A DNA stretch of 64,000 bases from an uncultured Erythrobacter sp. (lineage in GTDB: Bacteria > Pseudomonadota > Alphaproteobacteria > Sphingomonadales > Sphingomonadaceae), in NCBI GenBank assembly GCA_947488325.1, contig CANKYZ010000004.1, positions 62,001 to 126,000 on the forward strand. Reading direction: 5' to 3'. Shown here in pieces: positions 35,864-47,622 of the stretch. The position numbers were made by a program, and so were the translations under genes. Under the pieces are notes generated by a model. That model was not told where the DNA came from. It searched no databases and was given only the letters and a program-made list of their open reading frames with translations. Positions within the stretch are counted from its first letter, which is position 1; each line of letters begins with the position of its first letter.

Positions 35864-35930
35864 GGGGAGAGGAGAACTTACCTTCTCCTTTCCCCAACCT
35901 TCCCCAGCCGCTTGCACGGCTGGGGAAGGT
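35864..35930 (+). promoter_or_regulatory. Two strong hairpins between fapC-like and fapD-like genes
   Basis: The first hairpin pairs 35864-35876 with 35883-35895 (one G-U pair, loop CTTACC). The second is a perfect 14-bp stem, 35897-35910 with 35917-35930, loop CTTGCA. Neither has a U-tract. GGCTGGGGA near 35860 can also pair with TCCCCAGCC at 35901, so two folds exclude each other. They could protect or process the mRNA and favour fibril-subunit expression over downstream genes. They may also be a dispersed palindromic repeat. Confidence 0.6.
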
Positions 35931-35985
35931 ACCTTCGCACAATTCGAAGGCAGCCCTCTGCCCGAAGCATGGAGCAGTCCATACA

Positions 35986-36717
35986 ATGTTTCAGAATTCT
36001 CTCTTCCGGTCAAAAATACGCGCATTTGCGCTGTCTTGCGTGTGCGCGGCGATGGTTTCAGCTTGCAGCACCGCTCCGGCTGGCAGAACACCCATCTGGC
36101 TTGGCCAACTTTCCCCTGGTGCGCCAGTCATTGCATCGCAGCCACGCAGCTGGACAGCCCAAAAATTTGACAATCTGGTACGGCAAGAAGCAGATTTCAG
36201 CTGCGGTGCGGCGGTGCTCGCGACGATCTTTAACTATGCCTACGGGTACTCCACGACGGAGCGCCAAGTTCTGGTCAATATGCTCAAGATCGCGGACCCG
36301 GACATCGTTCGCCAGAGGGGTTTCTCACTGCTCGACATGAAGACCTATTCGATGTCGCTTGGCATGATGGCGGAAGGGTACAGGGTCGATTATGATCAGC
36401 TTGCACGCCTTGAATTCCCTGCAATCGTTCTGATCGATGTGCGCGGATACAAACATTTTGTCATCGCTCGCAAGGTGTTCGGGGGCAGGATCGCAATCGG
36501 CGATCCTGCCCTAGGCAACCGCACAATGACCCGTGATAAATTCGAAAGCGCATGGAACGGAATCGCTTTCGTGGTCATGGGCGAAGGCTACGACCCAGAC
36601 ACAGTTTTGGTCGATCCCCCGTCCCCCCTTTCGGCTCGACGCTTGCTGATGACGACGGCCAGCCTGCCCGCCACCGAGGCCGCAGAATACGGCTTTGCCC
36701 CCGGATATAGGTTTTGA
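35986..36717 (+). CDS. fapD: FapD-like C39 peptidase, predicted lipoprotein
   Basis: This 243-residue protein matches FapD, the C39-type cysteine peptidase of Fap amyloid operons. The candidate triad is Cys73 (ADFSCGAAVLAT), His157 (GYKHFVIA) and Asp173 (AIGDPALGNR); RQRGFSLLDMKTY is also typical of FapD. The N-terminus ends in a lipobox VSAC, with Cys27 as lipidation site, so it may be membrane-anchored. I chose ATG at 35986; a longer frame lacks a signal. It may process fibril subunits or the pore protein. Confidence 0.78.
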   Translation: MFQNSLFRSKIRAFALSCVCAAMVSACSTAPAGRTPIWLGQLSPGAPVIASQPRSWTAQKFDNLVRQEADFSCGAAVLATIFNYAYGYSTTERQVLVNMLKIADPDIVRQRGFSLLDMKTYSMSLGMMAEGYRVDYDQLARLEFPAIVLIDVRGYKHFVIARKVFGGRIAIGDPALGNRTMTRDKFESAWNGIAFVVMGEGYDPDTVLVDPPSPLSARRLLMTTASLPATEAAEYGFAPGYRF

Positions 36718-36734
36718 ATTCTTAGGAGGATAAG

Positions 36735-37586
36735 ATGCACACGCCACCAGCATTCCGAAAAGCACTGAAATCTAGTGTTACAGCAGCAGGGCTTTCGATC
36801 GTCACGCTCTATGCTGCGAGCGGAACACCGGCTTTTGCCAACGATCCATTCGTAGCGCTCGAAGCTCTTGGTCCTCCAATAGATGACAAAGAGCTGGGCG
36901 ACGTTCGCGGCAAGTTTATCCAACGCGGCGAAGTTTCGTTCTTTGGTATTTCGATGATAACCAGCTGGCAAGATGCAAGCGGTGTCACAACAACCGCACG
37001 CCTCATGTTCAACGTCAGCTTTCTGGATAATGGAAACGGCGAGGATCCTGCTCCACAACTGCTCGTCGGTTGGTCCCGTGAGGGCGATCCCGCGATGGAT
37101 GTGACAGACAGCCATGCGGGCTACACGCCGGTAATAACAGCGCAGCAAGTTCTTCCGGTTGGAGAGCTTGGCAACACACAGGGAGCAGCGCAGGCGAACA
37201 TTATCGCTGGCGCCGATAACTCCACCATCAATGGTTTGCAGATCGCGTTGGTCCCGACATCCGAACTCACCGAGTTTAAGTCTGACGGATTGACTTCGAT
37301 CACAGAAACCACTGGACGCGGATTTGCCGATGGCGATGCTCTGGAATTTCGCATTGGCGCCAATGAACTAGCTCTCGCGCTGACCGGCAACAATGGCAGT
37401 GACAGCACTTTGCAAAGCGTGGGCGGTGACCTTGGCAGAGTACTTCAGCAAACAACAATTAACAGCGACGGAAACCTGATCAGCAACTCCGCCGCTATCA
37501 TCATCGGGACGGATATTGGTTCGACCGACTTTAGCGCCGTACGCGCGACGGAGGCACTTTCGGTCATGCGCGGACACGGATTCTGA
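36735..37586 (+). CDS. fapE: FapE-like amyloid accessory protein
   Basis: This 283-residue secreted protein has a signal peptide to about residue 36. The segment ELGDVRGKFIQRGEVSFFGISMITSWQ resembles the conserved N-terminal part of FapE as I recall it. The C-terminal half, rich in Asn, Gly and Ser with LQQTTINSDGNLISNSA, has fibril-like composition. AGGAGGATAAG precedes the ATG. FapE is an extracellular minor component of Pseudomonas Fap fibrils. The order fapD-fapE supports the call. Confidence 0.6.
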   Translation: MHTPPAFRKALKSSVTAAGLSIVTLYAASGTPAFANDPFVALEALGPPIDDKELGDVRGKFIQRGEVSFFGISMITSWQDASGVTTTARLMFNVSFLDNGNGEDPAPQLLVGWSREGDPAMDVTDSHAGYTPVITAQQVLPVGELGNTQGAAQANIIAGADNSTINGLQIALVPTSELTEFKSDGLTSITETTGRGFADGDALEFRIGANELALALTGNNGSDSTLQSVGGDLGRVLQQTTINSDGNLISNSAAIIIGTDIGSTDFSAVRATEALSVMRGHGF

Positions 37587-37609
37587 AAGAGATTAAAGGT
37601 GGTAAGACC

Positions 37610-38203
37610 ATGAAAATTCTATCTTCTCTCGTAATTGCTGCCGTCCTCTTCGTCAGCCCGACTGTCGGACATGCGGAAAACTCCAGCGGACAGTTTGCAG
37701 TGGAGGGGCCAGGACGTCTGACCTGTGAGGCATTTACAGATGCCCGAACGGACAAAGGTTCAGCAGAATTCCAGCGATTAATCGGATTCATCGAAGGCTA
37801 TTTGAGCGCGGCCAACCGTTATGAACCGAACACATTCGACCTTTCTCCTTGGCACAATGCCGCTGCGTTTGATTTGATCCTCAACAAACACTGCACCGAA
37901 AATCCCGAAGATGTGATTGTCAGCGTGGCGCAAAAGATGGTCTCCGCTCTGCGGCCAGTGCGTGTCGCCAGCTATTCTCCGATGGTGGAGGTGGGCTCAG
38001 GAGAAAATCGCGCGATCTTGTACAGGACCATTCTTCGCCGGACCCAAGCTTCCTTGCGGTCGCGTGGCTTGTTCGCGGGTGAGGAAGACGGAAACTACTC
38101 ACCGCAGATGCGTGATGCTCTGTTGGCATTCCAAAGACAAGCTGATCTCTTTGAAACCGGTGTGCCTGATCCGGCCACGCTTTGGACGCTACTCAATCCG
38201 TAA
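37610..38203 (+). CDS. Secreted two-cysteine domain fused to peptidoglycan-binding domain
   Basis: This 197-residue protein has a signal peptide (to residue 22). A helical domain follows with Cys39 and Cys95, probably disulfide-bonded, and the signature IGFIEGYLSAANRYEP. The C-terminal region (about 145-197: LRSRGLFAGEEDGNYSPQMRDALLAFQRQ, then TGVPDPATLWTLL) matches PG_binding_1 domains. It lies between fapE and fapF in the same transcript. Inference: it anchors or aligns the FapF pore through the cell wall. I know no such member in the Pseudomonas operon. Confidence 0.6.
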   Translation: MKILSSLVIAAVLFVSPTVGHAENSSGQFAVEGPGRLTCEAFTDARTDKGSAEFQRLIGFIEGYLSAANRYEPNTFDLSPWHNAAAFDLILNKHCTENPEDVIVSVAQKMVSALRPVRVASYSPMVEVGSGENRAILYRTILRRTQASLRSRGLFAGEEDGNYSPQMRDALLAFQRQADLFETGVPDPATLWTLLNP

Positions 38204-38250
38204 TCGCGGGTGGGTTGAACTGGAGATCGTCAGGTAAGGGGACGAAAGTC

Positions 38251-39618
38251 ATGAGCCTTCTTAAGACAGCAAGCACCGCGTTGATTGCCGGTTCTACTAT
38301 GGCGCTGGCAATGCCGTATCACGCATCAGCTCAAAGCTTTGAGACTGAAATAGAAACTTTGCGCGCGCAGATCGCTGAGTTGGAAGAGCGCGAGGCGAGA
38401 GCAAATGCCCGTTTACGTGCACTTGAAGATCAACTCTTGCGCATCCAAGCAGAGCCGATTTCCCCCGACGAAGCGCTCACAATACGAGGCCGTGCGGTGC
38501 CCGCACAGACCCGTCCGAGGACGCTAGACCTATCGCTTGACGCCTTTCGCGGTTCTTACCCGGTCATGGACCGAGAGGACTCGGTAAGATTTGTACAGAT
38601 ACAACAGGCTGAGGATGCTGCGGGAAGAAGCGATCAGGACGATGAGAGTGTGCAAAGAGCCCCAGACACCTCCGCAGCGGTTGAAGATATCGTGCAAGAG
38701 CAACAGGGTTTGCAACGGAGCCGTTGGGGAGCTGATTTATCGGTTGGTTACTCGCGCTTCAGCGATGCACGGATCAATCTAGACGGCTTCCTGGCGCTTG
38801 ATGCAATCTTTCTGGGAACGATCAGCATAGATGAGGTTGATGCAGACATCTTCACCAGTGAGGCGACGCTGCGATATGGTGTCAGCGATGATCTGTTCTT
38901 GGATGCCAGCGTTCCCTTTCTATACCGCACATCCACCTTCCGCAGCGGAGGTGCAGGAGGCGCAGCGAACGAACTGGTAGAAACCAGTGTCCATGACGGC
39001 GGCCTTGGTGACATCAGCCTGGGTGCGAGTTATCAATTGCTAACGGAGACGATCAGGCGTCCGAATCTGGTATTGAGCGGTCGAGCGAAACTCCCCACCG
39101 GCCAAGAGCCTTTTGGTATTGATTTTGTCGAAGTTGTTGGCAGCGAAGGAAATCTGCAGGTTCCCAATGAACTGGCGACTGGCAGCGGGGTATATGGAGC
39201 ATCAATTGGGCTCTCGGCGCTCAAATCGCTAGATCCATTGGTGGTATTTGGCAGTCTCAACTATTTTCGTAACTTCGAACGTAATTTTGGCGATATCGAC
39301 GAGAATCCCGGACCTCAACCTGGCCGAGTGGATGTGGGTGATGCAGTCCAATTCGGCGCCGGCCTAGCCTTTGCGCTCAATGATCGATCAAGCATTTCGA
39401 TGTCCTACTCCCAGCGGGTTGTCGAGCGCTCCCGTGTGCGGCTTGATGGTCAAGAGTGGCAGCGGATCGTTGGTAGCCAAGCCAATGTCGCATTGGTTAA
39501 TCTGGGGGCGACATTCTCATTAGGGGATCAGTTATCGCTTGTTTCAACGGTTGGTATTGGCTTGACCGATGACAGCCCCGACATGGTTGTTGGAATTCGA
39601 CTGCCATACCGGTTTTAG
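38251..39618 (+). CDS. fapF: FapF-like outer membrane amyloid secretion pore
   Basis: This 455-residue protein has a signal peptide (to about residue 28), a periplasmic coiled coil (FETEIETLRAQIAELEEREARANARLRALEDQLLRIQ, about 30-68), a linker, and a beta-barrel from about residue 155. It ends in the outer-membrane sorting signature with terminal phenylalanine (IRLPYRF). This architecture is that of FapF, a trimeric barrel whose coiled coil gates export of Fap subunits. ATG at 38251 has AAGGGGA upstream. It is the last gene of the operon. Confidence 0.75.
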   Translation: MSLLKTASTALIAGSTMALAMPYHASAQSFETEIETLRAQIAELEEREARANARLRALEDQLLRIQAEPISPDEALTIRGRAVPAQTRPRTLDLSLDAFRGSYPVMDREDSVRFVQIQQAEDAAGRSDQDDESVQRAPDTSAAVEDIVQEQQGLQRSRWGADLSVGYSRFSDARINLDGFLALDAIFLGTISIDEVDADIFTSEATLRYGVSDDLFLDASVPFLYRTSTFRSGGAGGAANELVETSVHDGGLGDISLGASYQLLTETIRRPNLVLSGRAKLPTGQEPFGIDFVEVVGSEGNLQVPNELATGSGVYGASIGLSALKSLDPLVVFGSLNYFRNFERNFGDIDENPGPQPGRVDVGDAVQFGAGLAFALNDRSSISMSYSQRVVERSRVRLDGQEWQRIVGSQANVALVNLGATFSLGDQLSLVSTVGIGLTDDSPDMVVGIRLPYRF

Positions 39619-39641: not shown

Positions 39642-40073
39642 TCAAGGTTCGAGATAGATATGCTTGGATGGCTCCATCAGCTTTCGTTTGGTGAATGCTA
39701 GAGGGACGGCTTTCATCTCTTCGCTATCGATCCGGCTCCAGACAACGTGGCAGTGCCTGCGGTCGCCTTTTTCGTGAAAGACTATGGCGCGCGGTTGGCC
39801 CTCAAGGCCCAGCCTTTCTTCAGCGCCCTTTATCGCTTCTAAGAAGGTTTCCGTTTCCACTTTCTGCGAAGCTGGCGGGTTTATGCTAAGTGAGAAGAGA
39901 TATTTCTGGCATCGCGTCCCGCGTGCCGTCGCCTCTGCCTCTTTGAAGGCCGAAGACAGATCATCGCCTGCGAACCCAGAGACTTCTTGCCCAGTGACGT
40001 GTTCATTATCAGGACTCATCAGATGATGAGCCAGATTGTGTCCATTGGCGCGCGAGTTTCCAACGAAGATCAT
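39642..40073 (-). pseudogene. Truncated MobA/VirD2-type relaxase
   Basis: The 143-residue frame carries the relaxase core: GNSRANGHNLAHHLM, YLFSLSINPP, and the metal-binding motif GDRRHCHVVWSRID. It stops right after KHIYLEP, where full-length relaxases continue past an LEHGW-type sequence, so the C-terminal part has been lost by frameshift or deletion. It follows mobC by 11 bases. It is a remnant of a mobilisable plasmid or integrative element. Confidence 0.7.
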
Positions 40074-40084
40074 GGCCGCACATC

Positions 40085-40492
40085 CTACAAGCCGAGCGCT
40101 TCAATCAGAGATGAACGAATAAAGGCAATGTCATCGGCAGCATCTCCAATTGCAGCCTCGGTGTCGTGAGGAAGCCCCAATGTCCCACTATTAACCGCAC
40201 GGGCCAGTTGATTGAGGTTGTTTGAAAGCTGTGAATGTCCAAGAGCGCCCAGAACACGCCCCAATGCCTCGAAGTCTTTGATAGGACGCTTGCCTTTCGC
40301 GCGATGTGCAGGCGCTTCATCACCAATGCAGCGCGAACGTACATAGGCGCTAAGCGTGAGATCACCCGCTTTGCGTTCAAGTTCAGCGCGTTCGTATTCG
40401 ATAAAGCGAACAGAGACTGGCCTGCCGTAGTAAGGCGCTTTCTGCTTGCCTTCAGCAGCTTCATTAAAGGGAGTGCCCGCCGAGCCTGTCAT
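40085..40492 (-). CDS. mobC: MobC-like plasmid mobilisation protein
   Basis: This 135-residue protein resembles MobC relaxosome accessory proteins: VSVRFIEYERAELERKAGDLTLSAYVRSRC, then LGALGHSQLSNNLNQLARAVNSGTL. It would bind the origin of transfer beside the relaxase. No intact transfer genes are near, so it is likely a relic together with the truncated relaxase. Confidence 0.72.
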   Translation of the reverse strand: MTGSAGTPFNEAAEGKQKAPYYGRPVSVRFIEYERAELERKAGDLTLSAYVRSRCIGDEAPAHRAKGKRPIKDFEALGRVLGALGHSQLSNNLNQLARAVNSGTLGLPHDTEAAIGDAADDIAFIRSSLIEALGL

Positions 40493-40665: not shown

Positions 40666-42399
40666 GTGAGTGATATAGGGCTGATCTTTACCGGCGTAAG
40701 CTGTGTGTTTTTCATGGCGTTGGTTGGCTGGGTCAGCTGGCTGAAAACGCGCGGAACTGCGGATACAAAGGAAGGTTATTTCCTTGCTGGCCGGGGGCTT
40801 GGGGCGACGTTTATTGCAGGGTCGCTTTTGCTCACCAATCTATCCGCCGAACAGCTGATAGGGCTCAACGGTTCGGCCTATGGTTATAATATGTCGAGCA
40901 TGGGCTGGGAGGTAACTGCGGCGGTTGCGACTATCGCAATGGCGCTGATTTTCTTGCCCAAATATCTAGCGGGCGCCTTCACAACATTGCCGCAATTTCT
41001 GAACGATCGGTTTGATCCGGCTGTGCGGCGTATGTCGGTTATGCTGTTCATGCTGGGCTATGGCCTCGTGACGATCCCTAGCGTGCTTTATTTTGGATCG
41101 CTTGCAGTCATTGCTTTCTTTGATGTGCCAGGTTTGACAGGTTTGGGTGATTTTGAAGCATTGGTGATGATGGTGGTCCTGATCGGCACCACAGGTGCGA
41201 TTTACGCTGTGTTTGGCGGTTTGCGAGCGGTTGCAATCTCAGATACTCTCAACGGTGTTGGTTTGCTGATCATTGGAATCTTAGTCCCGGTCTTCGGTCT
41301 AATAGCACTGGGCGATGGTGATTTCAGCGCGGGTTTTGCGACATTGGGCAGCGAGCATCCGGAAAAGCTCAACGCGATTGGCGCATCGGATGACCCGACG
41401 CCATTCGGGACAATCTTCACCGGGATGATTTTTGCCAACCTGTTTTACTGGTGCACCAATCAATATGTGATCCAGCGGACACTGGGAGCAAAGAGCCTCG
41501 CTGAGGGACAAAAGGGCGTTCTTTTTTCCGGATTCTTCAAAATTCTCGTGCCCTTTATGATGATGATCCCCGGCGTGATTGCGTTTCATCTTTATGGGCC
41601 GGAATTGGGGAACATTGATGAAGCCTATCCACGCCTGATCCGTGATGTACTGCCAGCCTATCTGTCGGGATTCTTCCTTGCAGTGCTGCTTGGTGCTGTG
41701 TTTAGTTCGTTCAATTCACTGCTGAACAGCGCCGCGACTTTGTTCAGCCTCGACGTCTATGCTCCTGCAAGAGAAAGCACGCGCGGAGACAAAGCTAGCG
41801 ATGCGGAGCTGGTCCGGGTGGCAAAGATTGCCAGCCTTGTGATTGCACTGTTTTCATTCGCGATTGCACCGCTTCTCGCCTTTGCGCCTGATGGGGTGTT
41901 TCAGGTGATCCGTATCTTCACCGGCTTTTACAATATCCCAACGATCGTGATCGTGATGGTCGGCCTGTTTACCGTGCGCGTGCCAGCATTGGGCGCGAAG
42001 ATTGTGGTGGTATTCCATGTGATCACTTACGGCCTGCTTCGCTCCGTTTTCGACGATGTCGTCACGCTGCATTTCATCCATATCTATGCCATCCTGTTTG
42101 TAATCGAGGTGATGATCATGCTGATCTGCGGCTGGCTGCGACCTCGAGAGCAGGCATGGAGGTTCACCCGCGATGAAAAGGTCGACTTGACGCCGTGGCC
42201 GTTTGCGAAGCCATTGGCGGTCACTTTGTTTTCATGCGTGGTGGCAACCTACCTGTTGTTCTCACCCATTGGTGTGGCTTCGGCGGACGGACCGGGCGCG
42301 CTATTCGCCACGCTGATTGGCGCGCTGTTCATCGGCAATCTGGCGTTATGGGCTGTTAATTTACGACGGAGCGAGGCTGGAGCAAGCTTGGCGACATGA
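40666..42399 (+). CDS. Sodium:solute symporter family transporter
   Basis: This is a 577-residue membrane transporter of the SSS family with about 13-14 helices. Family-typical segments are EGYFLAGRGLGATFIAGSLLLTNLSAEQLIGLNGSAYG near the N-terminus and FGGLRAVAISDTLNGVGLL in the middle. It resembles the sugar-transporting (vSGLT/YidK-like) branch. GTG start. With the beta-galactosidase and sugar oxidoreductases nearby, a sugar substrate is plausible but not proven. Confidence 0.85.
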   Translation: MSDIGLIFTGVSCVFFMALVGWVSWLKTRGTADTKEGYFLAGRGLGATFIAGSLLLTNLSAEQLIGLNGSAYGYNMSSMGWEVTAAVATIAMALIFLPKYLAGAFTTLPQFLNDRFDPAVRRMSVMLFMLGYGLVTIPSVLYFGSLAVIAFFDVPGLTGLGDFEALVMMVVLIGTTGAIYAVFGGLRAVAISDTLNGVGLLIIGILVPVFGLIALGDGDFSAGFATLGSEHPEKLNAIGASDDPTPFGTIFTGMIFANLFYWCTNQYVIQRTLGAKSLAEGQKGVLFSGFFKILVPFMMMIPGVIAFHLYGPELGNIDEAYPRLIRDVLPAYLSGFFLAVLLGAVFSSFNSLLNSAATLFSLDVYAPARESTRGDKASDAELVRVAKIASLVIALFSFAIAPLLAFAPDGVFQVIRIFTGFYNIPTIVIVMVGLFTVRVPALGAKIVVVFHVITYGLLRSVFDDVVTLHFIHIYAILFVIEVMIMLICGWLRPREQAWRFTRDEKVDLTPWPFAKPLAVTLFSCVVATYLLFSPIGVASADGPGALFATLIGALFIGNLALWAVNLRRSEAGASLAT

Positions 42400-42481
42400 G
42401 CGGCTCGTTTGGTGGATTGTCAGAGAACGAGGGAGGCGTACAATTCTAATCGGGGGCAGTTCTCTATTTAGGAGATCGCCA

Positions 42482-42619
42482 ATGGCAACTGCCGAGAAAC
42501 GTCCATACGCTAAACCGACGCTGATCATTCATGGTTCAGTTCGAAATCTCACAGGCGGGAGCGGTAGAGTGGGGCGTGATGGCGCCATCGGATTCCGAAA
42601 CACGCCGGGAGGCCGTTGA
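42482..42619 (+). CDS. Orphan lasso-peptide-like precursor
   Basis: This 45-residue peptide has AGGAG seven bases before its ATG. The leader reads YAKPTLIIHGSVRNLTG, fitting the lasso leader pattern YxxPxLxxxGxxxxxT with threonine at position -2. The predicted core begins at Gly26 (GSGRVGRD), placing Asp33 at core position 8, suited to an isopeptide ring, and ends TPGGR, 20 residues in all. No lasso cyclase, RRE protein, leader peptidase or exporter lies in this window. It may be served in trans or be a non-lasso relative. Confidence 0.6.
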   Translation: MATAEKRPYAKPTLIIHGSVRNLTGGSGRVGRDGAIGFRNTPGGR

Positions 42620-42633
42620 GAAAGATTGCCGAC

Positions 42634-43566
42634 TTACGCTACCAAACTCGCCAGAACCCGGCGTTTGCCCTCAAACGGACGCCGTCCATGCATCACTGCA
42701 AAATTGTCGATCAGTGCGACGTCGCCCGCTTGCCAGTTCAGATCGTAGGTTAGCTCATCCGCTATCGCGATGGCGGCCGCCATATTCCCGCTGGTGATCG
42801 CTGAGCCATCGCCAAAGGTGATCGCTCTGTTGGGATCGTTGCGGCTGTCGGCCCATCCGCGAAATGCCGCGATCAATTGGTTGAAGAAACTGCGGCGGCC
42901 ATCGGGAAGGGCGCGCACTGCATCAAGCGTCGGGGTGGTTGCCCGGAGAGAGTCGTCCTCGCGCCATTCCCAGCTATAGCCAAGCTCAGCCAACCGCGCT
43001 TCTGCACCTTCGCGATTATCGACGCTCAAAGTGCTGCGCCAGCTACGTCCTTGGCCGGACCCCGCATCATCGCTGCCCGGCATGACATTGGCGTAGCGTA
43101 CACCTTCAGCTTCGACCCGAGCGACAAAATCGGGAGCATCCGCCGCGAGCCGATCCAGCACCCAATCCGAACGACATAGAGGCGTCGCACCGCCTGTGTC
43201 GGCTGCGATCTCACAATAGAAGAACAATTTTGCGGGATATAGCGGCGTCTGCGCCATTTCGTGATGAAGGAATATCTCAGTCGTCGGTGGCGCTTCGTTG
43301 GCCGTAAAGACCCGCGGTGTCACATTGGTGCGCACCGCGTTTGACAGCGAATCCTCATAGGTAAAGCCGGGATCGCCGTAAGCTTCGATCGCTGCGTCAA
43401 AGGCCACTGGATCAGGCACATCAAACCCGCGAAACAACAGCGCGCCCGCGTCTGCCAAACCGGCATCGACCGCCCCTTTATTCGCACCAAGGAACGCGGC
43501 TAGACGGCCATTGCCCGTTATGATTCGGGGAAATTCGCTGCTGTTTGTGTTGTTGATTTCAGTCAT
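42634..43566 (-). CDS. TauD/TfdA-like Fe(II)/2-oxoglutarate dioxygenase
   Basis: This 310-residue protein has an iron-binding motif of HxE type (FLHHEMAQTP) and a distal histidine in NFAVMHGRRPFEGKRRVLASL. The HxE variant resembles the SyrP-like branch that hydroxylates amino-acid residues. ATG at 43566 overlaps the aldo/keto reductase stop (ATGA), so it belongs to the minus-strand operon. It converges on the lasso-like peptide gene with 14 bases between. Substrate unknown. Confidence 0.75.
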   Translation of the reverse strand: MTEINNTNSSEFPRIITGNGRLAAFLGANKGAVDAGLADAGALLFRGFDVPDPVAFDAAIEAYGDPGFTYEDSLSNAVRTNVTPRVFTANEAPPTTEIFLHHEMAQTPLYPAKLFFYCEIAADTGGATPLCRSDWVLDRLAADAPDFVARVEAEGVRYANVMPGSDDAGSGQGRSWRSTLSVDNREGAEARLAELGYSWEWREDDSLRATTPTLDAVRALPDGRRSFFNQLIAAFRGWADSRNDPNRAITFGDGSAITSGNMAAAIAIADELTYDLNWQAGDVALIDNFAVMHGRRPFEGKRRVLASLVA

Positions 43567-44530
43567 AGATCGGGTGAAATGTGTTGAAGGCAGCTTCGGC
43601 AAAAACACCGGGATCGTTGAAACGACGGTCTTGATTGAGCGCGCTGATGGCCGCCATTTCAACATTGCTCAGCGCAAAATCACCGGTTTCGAGGTTTTCG
43701 CGCATCCGTTCAGGCTTAATTGTCTTTGGGATGATCGCGGTGCCGCGTTGGATGCCCCAGCGCAGCAAGACCTGTGCGGGCGTCTTACTATGCGCTTGTG
43801 CTGCTACCATTACGGGCGCTGCGCCCAGCAGGCTTTCACCCGCTTCCGCCATGTTCAATTCGAAATAGCTTTGCGCGCCCAGCGGCGAAAATGCCGTCAC
43901 GTCGATCCCATAATCGTATGCTAGTCGGATCAGCTTTTCCTGCGTCAGATAGGGGTGGGATTCGATCTGGAGCATTGACGGCTTTATCCGCGCATAGGTC
44001 ATCAGATCATGGATTAGTGCCGAATTGTAGTTGCACACGCCAATGCGTTTCACGAGACCCTTATCGACCAAAGCCTCCATCGCTTTCCACGTTTCATGTA
44101 AGGGCACAGCCGCGCGTTGCATAACGGGTTCAGCGGCGTCAGGATTGCGGAGCCATTCGGGCGGGTAACGCTCTGCGATCGGTACGTATTCCAGCGCGAT
44201 TGGGAAGTGCATCAGATAGAGGTCGAGGCAATCGAGTTGAAGGTCGGTCAGCGATTTGCGGCACGCTTCCTCGACATGTTCGGGCGCGTGGAAGGTGTTC
44301 CACAGTTTGGACGTGATCCAAAGATCGTCGCGCGTCACCAAACCTTCTGCCAAGGCTTGAGCCAAACCTTCGCCAGTTTCCGCTTCATTGGCGTAATCGG
44401 CGGCGCTGTCAAAATGGCGATAGCCCGCGTTAACAGCTTCAACGACGCTCGCGGCGGTATCGTCGCGCGGTATCTTCCAAAGGCCGAAGCCAGTGCGGGG
44501 TATGCCAGTTCGAGGGTCGGTTGTTTGCAT
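43559..44530 (-). CDS. Aldo/keto reductase, xylose-reductase-like
   Basis: This 323-residue NAD(P)H oxidoreductase has catalytic residues in FDSAADYANE (Tyr), WITSKLWNTFH (Lys) and LYLMHFPIALEYVP (His). The cofactor motif is AIIPKTIKPERMRENL. The HFPIA...ERYPPEW segment resembles D-xylose reductases. I chose ATG at 44530, just after the Gfo/Idh/MocA stop; GTG at 44548 is possible. Confidence 0.85.
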   Translation of the reverse strand: MQTTDPRTGIPRTGFGLWKIPRDDTAASVVEAVNAGYRHFDSAADYANEAETGEGLAQALAEGLVTRDDLWITSKLWNTFHAPEHVEEACRKSLTDLQLDCLDLYLMHFPIALEYVPIAERYPPEWLRNPDAAEPVMQRAAVPLHETWKAMEALVDKGLVKRIGVCNYNSALIHDLMTYARIKPSMLQIESHPYLTQEKLIRLAYDYGIDVTAFSPLGAQSYFELNMAEAGESLLGAAPVMVAAQAHSKTPAQVLLRWGIQRGTAIIPKTIKPERMRENLETGDFALSNVEMAAISALNQDRRFNDPGVFAEAAFNTFHPIYD

Positions 44531-44534
44531 GTGT

Positions 44535-45650
44535 CTATGTCTCGTCACTAAATCGCATATCGACCGGCTGGCCGGTGGCGATACTTTGCTGTGCGGCGAT
44601 GCCCATTACTACGGAGCGGTAGCCGTCGCGGGCTGTGATGAGGGGCGGGGTGCCATTCACCAAAGCGGCATGGAAATCGCGCTGTTGGAAATAGGTCGCT
44701 CCGTGGTGGCTGCCAGCCTCCAGCGCGTCTGTTGGAGTTTCGACCGTTTCGACCGATGGGCCAGCGTGCCCGACAATACGCCTGCCTGCATCATCGACCG
44801 TTCCTCCGCGCGGCGACCATGTCACCTCGCTAGCAGGGAGCTTTACTTCCAACTTGCCAATCGGACCGACCGCGCTGATCTCTTCCTGCTGTTCAGACCC
44901 TTCGGCAAACATGCAGAGATCAAGCATTGCACGCGCACCGCCCGCGAAATCGATGATCACAAAAGCGTTGTCGAGAATGTCGGGCTTCTCACCGTCATAG
45001 CGTTCGTCCAGGTGGTTTACATCCGCCGCGCCGCTGGCAAAAATCCGGATAGGTTCATCCCGCAAAATGTGGCGCATGAGGTCGAAGAAATGGCAGCACT
45101 TCTCAACCAAAGTGCCGCCCGTATTGCGATTGAAGCGGTTCCAATCGTCGACTTTGACGAGGAAGGGGAAGCGGTGTTCACGGATCGCGAGCATTTTGAG
45201 ATCGCCCGCCTCGCCCGCATGAATGCGCTCGATAAAGCGCGTAACTGGCGGCATATATCTATACTCCAGCCCGACCCAGAACAGCTGCGGATAGTCGCGC
45301 GCTGCCCGCGCCAAATCTTCAGCATCCGCGACATCGGTGCATATCGGCTTTTCGAGCAGAATGGCCGCACCCGTATCCATCACTGGCCTGACAATTTTGG
45401 CATGGGTGAAATTGGGAGAAGCGATGATGACGGCATCAGGCTTTGCCTTGGTGAGCATCGCGGCATTGTCGTCGAATAGGTACACATTCTGCCCAAGCGC
45501 TTCTGCTTGTTGCTGAGCAGCCGTAAGCGAACCGGCGTCAGGATCGGCAATCGCAATCAGCTCTGCACCTGGCACCAGAGCAAGATTGCGCATATGTTCG
45601 CGGCCCATCATGCCGCAGCCAATGATCGCATAGGTTCGGGTGCTGGTCAT
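44535..45650 (-). CDS. Gfo/Idh/MocA family oxidoreductase
   Basis: This 371-residue NAD(P)-dependent sugar oxidoreductase has a Rossmann start (YAIIGCGMMGREHMRNLALVPGAEL) and the family motif LLEKPICTD with catalytic lysine, followed by a C-terminal barrel-like domain (VGLEYRYMPPVTRFIERI). Such enzymes oxidise inositols or sugars. It sits between the beta-galactosidase and the aldo/keto reductase on the same strand, consistent with sugar catabolism. Confidence 0.87.
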   Translation of the reverse strand: MTSTRTYAIIGCGMMGREHMRNLALVPGAELIAIADPDAGSLTAAQQQAEALGQNVYLFDDNAAMLTKAKPDAVIIASPNFTHAKIVRPVMDTGAAILLEKPICTDVADAEDLARAARDYPQLFWVGLEYRYMPPVTRFIERIHAGEAGDLKMLAIREHRFPFLVKVDDWNRFNRNTGGTLVEKCCHFFDLMRHILRDEPIRIFASGAADVNHLDERYDGEKPDILDNAFVIIDFAGGARAMLDLCMFAEGSEQQEEISAVGPIGKLEVKLPASEVTWSPRGGTVDDAGRRIVGHAGPSVETVETPTDALEAGSHHGATYFQQRDFHAALVNGTPPLITARDGYRSVVMGIAAQQSIATGQPVDMRFSDET

Positions 45651-45693
45651 AAGCGGCGTTCATGTGCTTGGGTGCCGAAATTGGCAAGTGCGA

Positions 45694-47622
45694 TCATGAC
45701 TTTGCCCAGATCGCAACGCCGGCGGGGTCCAGTGCGATCTCTCCTAAAATGGGTGTTCCAAAGCCCAATGGTCCAGTGTCGATTGTGCTGTTCGAATAAT
45801 TGAACGCAAAGATGTGCGAAGCACTGCGCCGGATACGCAAGCCCTCTGGTAATGGTTGAAGCGCCAACCCCGCCTCATCGGCAATACGTCCGATCAGCAG
45901 ATCAAGCAGTGACTGGTCAGGCCATGCGGCAACGTAACGTACATTCGCATTCGCAAAGACGATACCGCGACCATCTTTCAGCGCCAATTCAGGTTCAATC
46001 TCACTCGCCACATCTTCGCGCCAGCGTGAAATCGACCAGCTGTCGCCTGCTTCACAGACGTCATCGCGCAGCGATTCAACGCGCGTCACTGTCAGTGGGA
46101 TAAGATCGCGCAACTCACCGGGAGCCAGCCCAGCTGGAATGCAGAAACTTGTACTCTTGCTGCCTGACCGCGGACCGATCAGGACGGAGCAGTCAAGGGC
46201 GCTAAGCTTTTGCGTGAAGGCTGTTGGTGTGATCGGCAGGCTGGGGACAAAGACGGCGTCATATTGGCTCAGATCGGCTTCGGGACTGACAATATCGACA
46301 TCCAGCCCCTGACGCCGCAGTGCCGAATACCATTCATAGGTAAGTTCCAGATATCGGAAACTATGGCCTTGCGGTTGGATACCGCAGACCCATGCCGCCT
46401 CGTATGAGAAGACCAGTGCGACCGGTGCTTTGGCGATTTTCTGCGGGCCAATTTGAGCGATGGCTTGCGTTGCGGCTCGCGCTTCATAGGCTGCCTCAGC
46501 ATCAACACTGTCGGGTCGCAGCAAACCAGCATGCATTTGCTCCTGTGCAAAAGGAGCCTGCCGCCAGCGGAAATATGCGGTGAATTCAGCCCCATGTGCA
46601 CAGGCTTCCAACGTCCAAAGCGTAACCATACCCGGCAATGGTGCTGGGTTGAAACGCGCCCAGTTCACTGGCCCCGGTTGCTGCTCCATCACGCCCCAGC
46701 GACCGTTTGAACAGCCGCGATACAGATCATGGTGGAATGCGGCGATATCGGGATGACCTTGGCGAAGATAGTCGCGCTTTTCTTCGTCTGAGAACCAGAA
46801 TTGTTCCAAAAAGCCGAGCGGGTAACTGTCCCATGTCGCCACATCGAGATCACGCCCAACATCATGATGGTCGAATTCTGTAAAGAAGCCCATGAAGTTG
46901 TGCGTGATGTCTCTACCCGGCGAATTTTTGCGTAAGATATCTACTTGCACACGGTTGAAACTGACGACTTCATCCGATGCGAAACGCCGATAATCGAGCC
47001 AATGTGCAGGGTTCGCTTCGGTGACTGTGAGGTTGGGTGGGTCAATTTCTCCAAAGGAGCGATATTCCATGCTCCAAAAGACATTGCCCCATGCGGTGTT
47101 TAACGCGTCAACATCACCGTATCGTGCCGCCAGCCATTCGCGGAACCGCGCTGCAGCGGCGTCTGAAAAACTAAGCACCGTGTCGTGGCAGCCATATTCA
47201 TTGTCGGTCTGCCAAGCAGTGATCGCAGGATGCTGACCATAGCGTTTTGCCAATTGCGCGGTGATCCGACTGGCTTCCTTGCGATATCCGGCATGCGAAA
47301 AGCAATAATGTCGCCGCGATCCAAAGCCTCGCGGACGGCCGCTTTCATCGGTCGCAACCATATCCGGCATCTGGTCCACCAGCCATTTGGGTGGAGTGGC
47401 CGTTGGTGTGCAGAGGATCACTTTGAGTCCCGCAGCGTGCAAGGTCTCTATCGCACAGTCGAGCCAATCCCAGTCGAATTGCCCCGGTGCCGCTTCAATC
47501 CGGCTCCACGCAAACTCCCCAATCCGAACCAATGACAGGCCCATTTCGGCCATCCGGCGCGCATCGTCGGCCCACATCTCCGCAGGCCAATGTTCAGGAA
47601 AATAACAACAGCCGAGTTCCAC
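45694..47622 (-). CDS. GH42 family beta-galactosidase
   Basis: This 642-residue glycoside hydrolase begins GCCYFPEHWPAEMWADDARRMAEMG, typical of GH42. The acid/base glutamate lies in AWQTDNEYGCH, the nucleophile in MEQQPGPVNWA, followed by the YFRWRQAPFAQEQ motif, a trimerisation domain and a C-terminal beta domain. No signal peptide, so it is cytoplasmic and likely cleaves imported galactosides. GTG start. It is first in the minus-strand sugar operon. Confidence 0.92.
   Translation of the reverse strand: MELGCCYFPEHWPAEMWADDARRMAEMGLSLVRIGEFAWSRIEAAPGQFDWDWLDCAIETLHAAGLKVILCTPTATPPKWLVDQMPDMVATDESGRPRGFGSRRHYCFSHAGYRKEASRITAQLAKRYGQHPAITAWQTDNEYGCHDTVLSFSDAAAARFREWLAARYGDVDALNTAWGNVFWSMEYRSFGEIDPPNLTVTEANPAHWLDYRRFASDEVVSFNRVQVDILRKNSPGRDITHNFMGFFTEFDHHDVGRDLDVATWDSYPLGFLEQFWFSDEEKRDYLRQGHPDIAAFHHDLYRGCSNGRWGVMEQQPGPVNWARFNPAPLPGMVTLWTLEACAHGAEFTAYFRWRQAPFAQEQMHAGLLRPDSVDAEAAYEARAATQAIAQIGPQKIAKAPVALVFSYEAAWVCGIQPQGHSFRYLELTYEWYSALRRQGLDVDIVSPEADLSQYDAVFVPSLPITPTAFTQKLSALDCSVLIGPRSGSKSTSFCIPAGLAPGELRDLIPLTVTRVESLRDDVCEAGDSWSISRWREDVASEIEPELALKDGRGIVFANANVRYVAAWPDQSLLDLLIGRIADEAGLALQPLPEGLRIRRSASHIFAFNYSNSTIDTGPLGFGTPILGEIALDPAGVAIWAKS

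Follow-up and report, generated by a model that had tools for sequence, protein, structure and literature searches.

A lasso-type precursor gene lying apart from the maturation cluster in an uncultured Erythrobacter genome

The orphan gene and its surroundings

The stretch of DNA analysed here (the window) comprises 64,000 nucleotides of a contig, designated C4, of an uncultured Erythrobacter sp. Between the genes of a sodium:solute symporter (SSS) and of a convergently oriented TauD/TfdA-family dioxygenase (TauD) lies a short gene whose translation is MATAEKRPYAKPTLIIHGSVRNLTGGSGRVGRDGAIGFRNTPGGR, 45 amino acids followed by a stop (Table 1). Residues are numbered from the predicted cleavage site (Gly26 = +1), which places Tyr at -17, Pro at -14, Leu at -12, Thr at -2 and Asp at +8. 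The protein has the two sequence elements by which a lasso precursor is recognized: a leader with YxxPxL and Thr(-2), and a core beginning with Gly1 (or another permitted residue) and carrying Asp or Glu at positions 7-9. Against the NCBIfam model NF033521 (lasso_leader_L3) it scored 23.2 bits, above the cut-off of 19. Seven of 14 control genomes gave some match to this model, none of them above the cut-off, and in the genome of the window just two matches exceeded it, the orphan and the precursor of the cluster on contig C7 described below. The motif Y..P.L...G.....T.G.{5,7}[DE] matched once in the six frames of the window and not at all in 150 order-3 Markov simulations. These results confirmed what an earlier note on this DNA had proposed, a 45-codon gene with a properly spaced AGGAG, an intact lasso-type leader and a 20-residue core; the search with a lasso-leader HMM, which the note had recommended, was positive.

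The promoter-like site upstream of the gene, equalled in 3 of 300 shuffled sequences, may serve the orphan's own transcription. The orphan at the corresponding site of genome G021 has a 9/12 match with an identical TACAAT (3 of 300 shuffles), and in the other nine of the 11 same-site orphans scanned against shuffles the match was weaker or absent. A promoter common to the same-site orphans was dropped and is not claimed, because only these two were clear of the shuffles.

Table 1. Features at the orphan locus (positions in the window) and in the lasso cluster (positions in locus L014 of contig C7)
Feature	Position	Strand	Basis or remark
SSS symporter, left neighbour	40666..42399	+	NF007790, 708 bits; PF00474
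Sigma-70-like promoter TTGTCA-16-TACAAT	42417..42444	+	between symporter stop and orphan; 10/12 consensus bases
AGGAG ribosome-binding site	42470..42474	+	7 nt upstream of orphan ATG
Orphan lasso precursor gene	42482..42619	+	45 codons plus stop (138 bases); NF033521 above cut-off; same-site homologues in 9 other genomes of 100
Leader, residues 1-25	42482..42556	+	YxxPxL -17 to -12, G -8, T -2, G -1; 19-row alignment
Core, 20 residues, GSGRVGRDGAIGFRNTPGGR	42557..42616	+	predicted ring Gly1-Asp8
TauD/TfdA-family dioxygenase, convergent right neighbour	42634..43665	-	PF02668, 102 bits; ORF as listed
Aldo/keto reductase (AKR), Gfo/Idh/MocA oxidoreductase, GH42 beta-galactosidase	43559..47622	-	mostly retained with or without the orphan (synteny)
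B2 peptidase	C7, 8653-9210	-	NF033537, 63.5 bits, cut-off 33; PF13471
Cyclase	C7, 9174-11171		GATase and Asn_synthase domains
Precursor P0002, MINTTAKAKYETPKLTTFGSVRNLTGGSGTRFRDGAVTNSRF	C7, 11174-11302		
Kinase	C7, 11842-12744		place and homology
B1 (PqqD/RRE protein)	C7, 12777-13058		PqqD, 64.8 bits
ABC exporter	C7, 13067-14809	-	
Nucleotidyltransferase	C7, 14731-15906	-	PF14907

The true start of TauD may lie nearer 43569 than the start of the listed reading frame. In whole-genome searches, Asn_synthase, Transglut_core3 and PqqD had no match on contig C4, in agreement with the earlier note, which had found no cyclase, peptidase or RRE gene nearby. The orphan is not clustered with maturation genes. 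Such clustering is usual rather than defining; its absence makes an ordinary cluster member less probable, not a lasso precursor.

The statement that no peptidase was nearby proved right with respect to a lasso B2, for which contig C4 gave no match, but a C39-type peptidase, which is not a lasso B2, is encoded at 35914-36714 of the window. The possibility that the orphan is a double-glycine peptide cut by this enzyme was rejected because the C39 gene had no match in the sequence fetched to either side (approximately 8-10 kb) of the 10 other same-site orphans. The C39 gene belongs to a row (35914-39618) in which the other products are one that Pfam did not match, one with a peptidoglycan-binding domain and one resembling outer-membrane proteins; the row may resemble a Fap-type amyloid export set. 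Adjoining the symporter gene, the minus strand (39642-40492) encodes a short relaxase-domain protein (143 aa) and a MobC/NikA-like protein, perhaps left over from a mobilisable element.

Lasso genes elsewhere in the genome

Searching the whole genome (3.27 Mb in 14 contigs) revealed a lasso cluster on contig C7. The absence of maturation genes, as the earlier note had it, therefore holds for contig C4 but not for the genome, which carries a cluster with a precursor similar to the orphan, and one of the situations in which the note would have abandoned its reading, a genome devoid of lasso maturation genes, did not arise. Cyclase, RRE and B2 are all encoded in C7, although the cyclase (252.6 against 525) and B1 (55.8 against 80) remained below the curated cut-offs of the lasso-specific NCBIfam models. 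By sequence, B1 is closest among solved proteins to the lasso protein TbiB1 (E 2.5e-14).

The C7 kinase had no match by sequence in Pfam, NCBIfam or PDB. The structural model of a relative encoded in locus L134 (mean pLDDT 89.4) matched PEPCK and HPr-kinase structures, e.g. 3tqf (E 1.4e-5). Judged from this model, the C7 enzyme is probably an HPr-kinase-type K, and the cluster would contain the K gene that marks phosphorylated lasso peptides. Ser2 of the orphan core is a candidate site for such a kinase.

P0002 and the orphan have the leader and the ring pattern in common and share the segments GSVRNLTGGSG and RDGA. A third match to the orphan in the same genome (C9:51948) was dropped (E 0.38, internal stop). 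Contig C6 of the same genome (G000) carries a second lasso-like pair (L015, 13272-15744), consisting of a protein with C-terminal Transglut_core3 and an Asn_synthase-type protein; a candidate precursor on this contig, P0003 (L004, 2731-2874), ends in the Trp-rich core GSGGWGWDRWFPGSPDWH.

Orphan precursors in related genomes

The orphan protein was searched against 100 genomes of the genus, its own included, and 33 genomes matched. All 50 matching places were fetched and annotated: 33 adjoin cluster genes, 16 are orphans, and one (L090, on contig C3 of G020) is a chance frame that was dropped from the orphan count. Ten of the 16 orphans, that of the window among them, occupy one and the same site between SSS and TauD (10 of 100 genomes), so that the comparison of synteny suggested earlier came out positive. 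All ten of these genomes have a second precursor elsewhere, beside a clade-type cyclase (threshold at least 200 bits). Two other orphans, L056 (G087) and L060 (G038), adjoin the gene of a 373-aa methyltransferase. Nine sister clusters were compared, and the protein encoded there between the precursor and the kinase is 43-57% identical to this enzyme. Orphans L081, L084 and L087 lie at other places. The orphans form about three lineages in a FastTree phylogeny of the neighbours, a spread compatible with either ancient presence followed by losses or transfer on several occasions.

Three observations were made in passing. Orphan L054 (9828-13492) adjoins two large serine recombinase genes, one of which was tested by Pfam; this neighbourhood suggests movement of the precursor. 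The precursor-kinase gap is occupied by a methyltransferase of approximately 313-380 aa, whose matches to the PRMT C-terminus are weak, in sister clusters L133 (10200-11327), L141, L144, L159, L163, L088, L153, L151 and L157; the gap in C7 has no such gene. The cluster of G078 (L082) is otherwise full and has a precursor in which a TAG breaks the leader near its start.

The pattern G[ST]VRNLTGG was found in 49 stretches of the genome_contigs collection, which may leave out the window's own genome, corresponding to 42 distinct confirmed loci. By title, all of these belong to Erythrobacteraceae or its genera except one 'Sphingomonadaceae bacterium'. At least one cluster gene accompanies 34 of the 42; the remaining eight are orphans, five of them at the SSS-TauD site.

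Gly1, Ser2 and Asp8 are retained in 16 of 16 orphans. Asp8 is present in 31 of the 32 cluster cores counted (the broken G078 precursor left out), and Ser2 in all 19 rows of the alignment; one cluster precursor, L128, has Thr2. In the 19-row alignment the leader is more strongly conserved than the core tail, and the tail RNTPGG or RNSPGG is retained in four species. The four same-site orphans closest to one another (own, G030, G060 and G080) gave, over six pairs, pS values of 0.61-0.82 and pN values of 0.20-0.27; synonymous differences are near saturation, and the ratio is rough because the sequences are short. These sequence comparisons give signs of purifying selection.

The presence of orphans was then compared with that of the cluster; the p-values of this comparison treat related genomes as independent. 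A clade-type cyclase was found in 30 of the 100 genomes, and two more (G005 and G047) have other cluster genes on cut contigs, which raises the number to 32. An orphan at any place occurred in 14 of these 32 and in one of the 68 others. The TauD of the orphan site is present in 37 genomes, and here the orphan was found in 10 of the 22 genomes with the cyclase vs none of the 15 without it (p 0.0019); when the cyclase-free genomes were limited to the nine with SSS beside TauD, p was 0.015. In 20 of the 27 orphan-free TauD genomes the matched ends of SSS and TauD are 0-53 nt apart; in G036 the distance is 228 nt, with no precursor between them. SSS was not found beside TauD in six of the 27, in one of which (L122) TauD stands at a contig end. 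The core of an orphan resembled the cluster core of its own genome (similarity 0.573) more than in shuffled pairings (0.482, p 0.008), a difference from which relatedness was not removed.

The orphan is dispensable, because the SSS-TauD site is without it in 12 of the 22 cyclase genomes. Its presence does not strictly need the machinery, because G039, with orphan L087, had no clade-type cyclase and no Transglut_core3 match. Two of the ten same-site genomes, G086 and G009, depart from the usual cluster. In G086 (L086) no B2 was found beside the cluster of cyclase, kinase, B1, exporter and nucleotidyltransferase. G009 has a precursor-bearing cyclase without other cluster genes (L063) and a second cyclase (L188) adjoined by kinase, B1, exporter and nucleotidyltransferase, with no B2 there. 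Both genomes have Transglut_core3 matches elsewhere.

In one sister lineage the same-site orphans of G019, G086 (E. crassostrea), G009 and isolate 4-65 continue into an S74 domain (L142, L143, L057, L062), as do the cluster precursors L148, L153 and L161. A family-level search, in which 18 of 397 genomes matched, added three fusions (L168-L170), ten in total; it further matched S74 proteins that lack a lasso leader (L171-L173, L175 and L176). The window's own orphan has no S74 domain. Against PF13884 (Peptidase_S74, cut-off 22) all six fusions tested of the ten were above the cut-off: three same-site orphans with 29.7, 23.9 and 34.3 bits, and L148, L153 and L161 with 29.1, 33.9 and 37.7 bits. 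The match starts at the Ser of SDRRLK/SDPRAK, and this Ser and the Lys five residues downstream are retained in 7 of 7 aligned rows. In endosialidases such a pair is catalytic, and here the domain may cut itself off before its first Ser.

The best PHROG relatives of the domain are virion structural and DNA ejection proteins, and a viral fold library returned 'intramolecular chaperone auto-processing domain' proteins (best E 1.3e-6). The AlphaFold model of an S74 fusion was poor (mean pLDDT 53.7), with the ICA domain of MyRF as the best hit in a PDB search (E 0.058), and the domain call is for this reason based on Pfam, PHROGs and the viral library. As in phage proteins with Peptidase_S74, the intramolecular chaperone domain, the S74 part is C-terminal in the sister orphans and in some cluster precursors. 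The phage carriers are larger structural proteins, whereas here the domain is found on lasso precursors of approximately 118-132 aa.

Proposed maturation in trans, alternatives and related systems

The orphan is most probably a functional, separately encoded lasso precursor, a paralogue of the C7 precursor that is matured in trans by the C7 cluster. Maturation in trans was one of three options left by the earlier note, and it is favoured by the presence, on another contig of the same genome, of a cluster with a similar precursor. The C7 B1/RRE protein would bind the YxxPxL leader of the orphan, B2 would cut after Gly(-1) with Thr(-2) as a guide, and the cyclase would link Gly1 to Asp8 and thread the tail. 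The HPr-kinase-fold enzyme may phosphorylate Ser2, and the ABC exporter would release the product. A single machinery would then serve two core peptides encoded at two loci. For the orphan product, lasso or branched-cyclic, the calculated mass is 1968.015 Da (linear minus water), or 2047.981 Da with a phosphate.

The second option of the note, a relic, would be a duplicated precursor that was left over and is no longer matured or expressed. Contig C4 without a match to cyclase, B2 or PqqD, the 12 cyclase genomes with an empty site and the orphan of G039 would suit such a remnant. Against it stand the excess of synonymous change among four species, the invariant Gly1 and Asp8, the fixed synteny in 10 genomes and the presence of a promoter-like and a ribosome-binding site. 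The retention of the gene at the same place in related species gives the orphan the look of a functioning component, not of a remnant, and we regard the relic as unlikely.

We judge it very unlikely that the orphan acts as a decoy or regulator which bears the leader, keeps the shared B1, B2 and cyclase occupied and yields no secreted lasso peptide. The stronger conservation of the leader relative to the core tail and the distance of the gene from exporter and cyclase agree with this role, but a decoy would need neither the Gly1/Asp8 pair found in every orphan nor the RNTPGG/RNSPGG tail kept in four species.

Maturation by the second lasso-like cluster is scarcely credible: the C6 pair is present in the same genome, but P0003 lacks the YxxPxL...GSVRNLTGG leader that the orphan and the C7 precursor share. 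Fe(II)/2OG enzymes are known to hydroxylate lasso peptides, and the adjacency of TauD is fixed in 10 genomes, but it is equally hard to believe that TauD tailors the orphan peptide and that SSS, orphan and TauD form a small pathway; of the 27 orphan-free TauD genomes, 25 have TauD together with AKR as well as Gfo/Idh, and because of this retention the main role of TauD is independent of the orphan.

The third option, another RiPP class, is unlikely, since the leader spacing is that of the experimentally studied BsfA from the bsf cluster of Bradymonas sediminis, in which, according to the passages retrieved from its description, YxxPxL spans -17 to -12 and Gly1 is joined to Asp8 (PMC10368454). 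The bsf cluster (BsfA, B1, B2, C, K) is further alike in having separate B1/RRE and B2 proteins and a kinase that acts with B1. It differs in three respects: BsfA has Ile at -2, where the same passages call Thr the usual residue and the orphan has Thr; the conserved hydroxyl residue of the core is Ser2 here, whereas BsfK acts on Ser3; and here one precursor gene is unlinked from the cluster (PMC10368454). Clusters of the paeninodin/pseudomycoidin type likewise add kinase and nucleotidyltransferase genes to the lasso set; in the excerpts at hand their kinase target is the C-terminal Ser, whereas the C7 core ends in SRF and that of the orphan in GGR, and here a second precursor is unlinked (PMC8498205).

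Precursors separated from their enzymes have parallels in other classes. As the retrieved passages describe them, prochlorosins similarly have one enzyme set for precursor genes that may be scattered over the genome, but they are lanthipeptides with up to tens of precursors, in contrast to one or two lasso orphans per genome here (PMC10783134). The heterocycloanthracin precursor gene is often outside the local context of its modifying enzymes, as here, and belongs to the thiazole/oxazole class, not to the lasso peptides (PMC4603692, in part). Lasso clusters were already predicted in Erythrobacter by a pan-genome study, which in its retrieved portions speaks of clusters, not of unlinked precursors (PMC9723273). 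In the retrieved parts of open-licence PMC papers, the literature search came upon neither trans maturation of an unlinked lasso precursor nor a lasso precursor fused to S74.

We tentatively put forward, as a serious possibility though short of an even chance, a dispersed lasso system in the Erythrobacteraceae. One cluster would mature several precursors scattered over the chromosome, some of them with a satellite tailoring methyltransferase. The S74 domain would have been captured by a scattered precursor (in one lineage) and by an Aurantiacibacter cluster precursor, and by cutting itself off it would fix where the core ends, either ahead of threading or while it proceeds. If true, the sister S74 fusions would represent a new means of protecting or trimming the C-terminus of a RiPP precursor. 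Unlinked precursors would escape lasso genome mining that takes clusters as its starting point. Should a single cyclase set serve unlinked cores, such sets would be naturally promiscuous, and hidden lasso peptides could be searched for by the leader alone.
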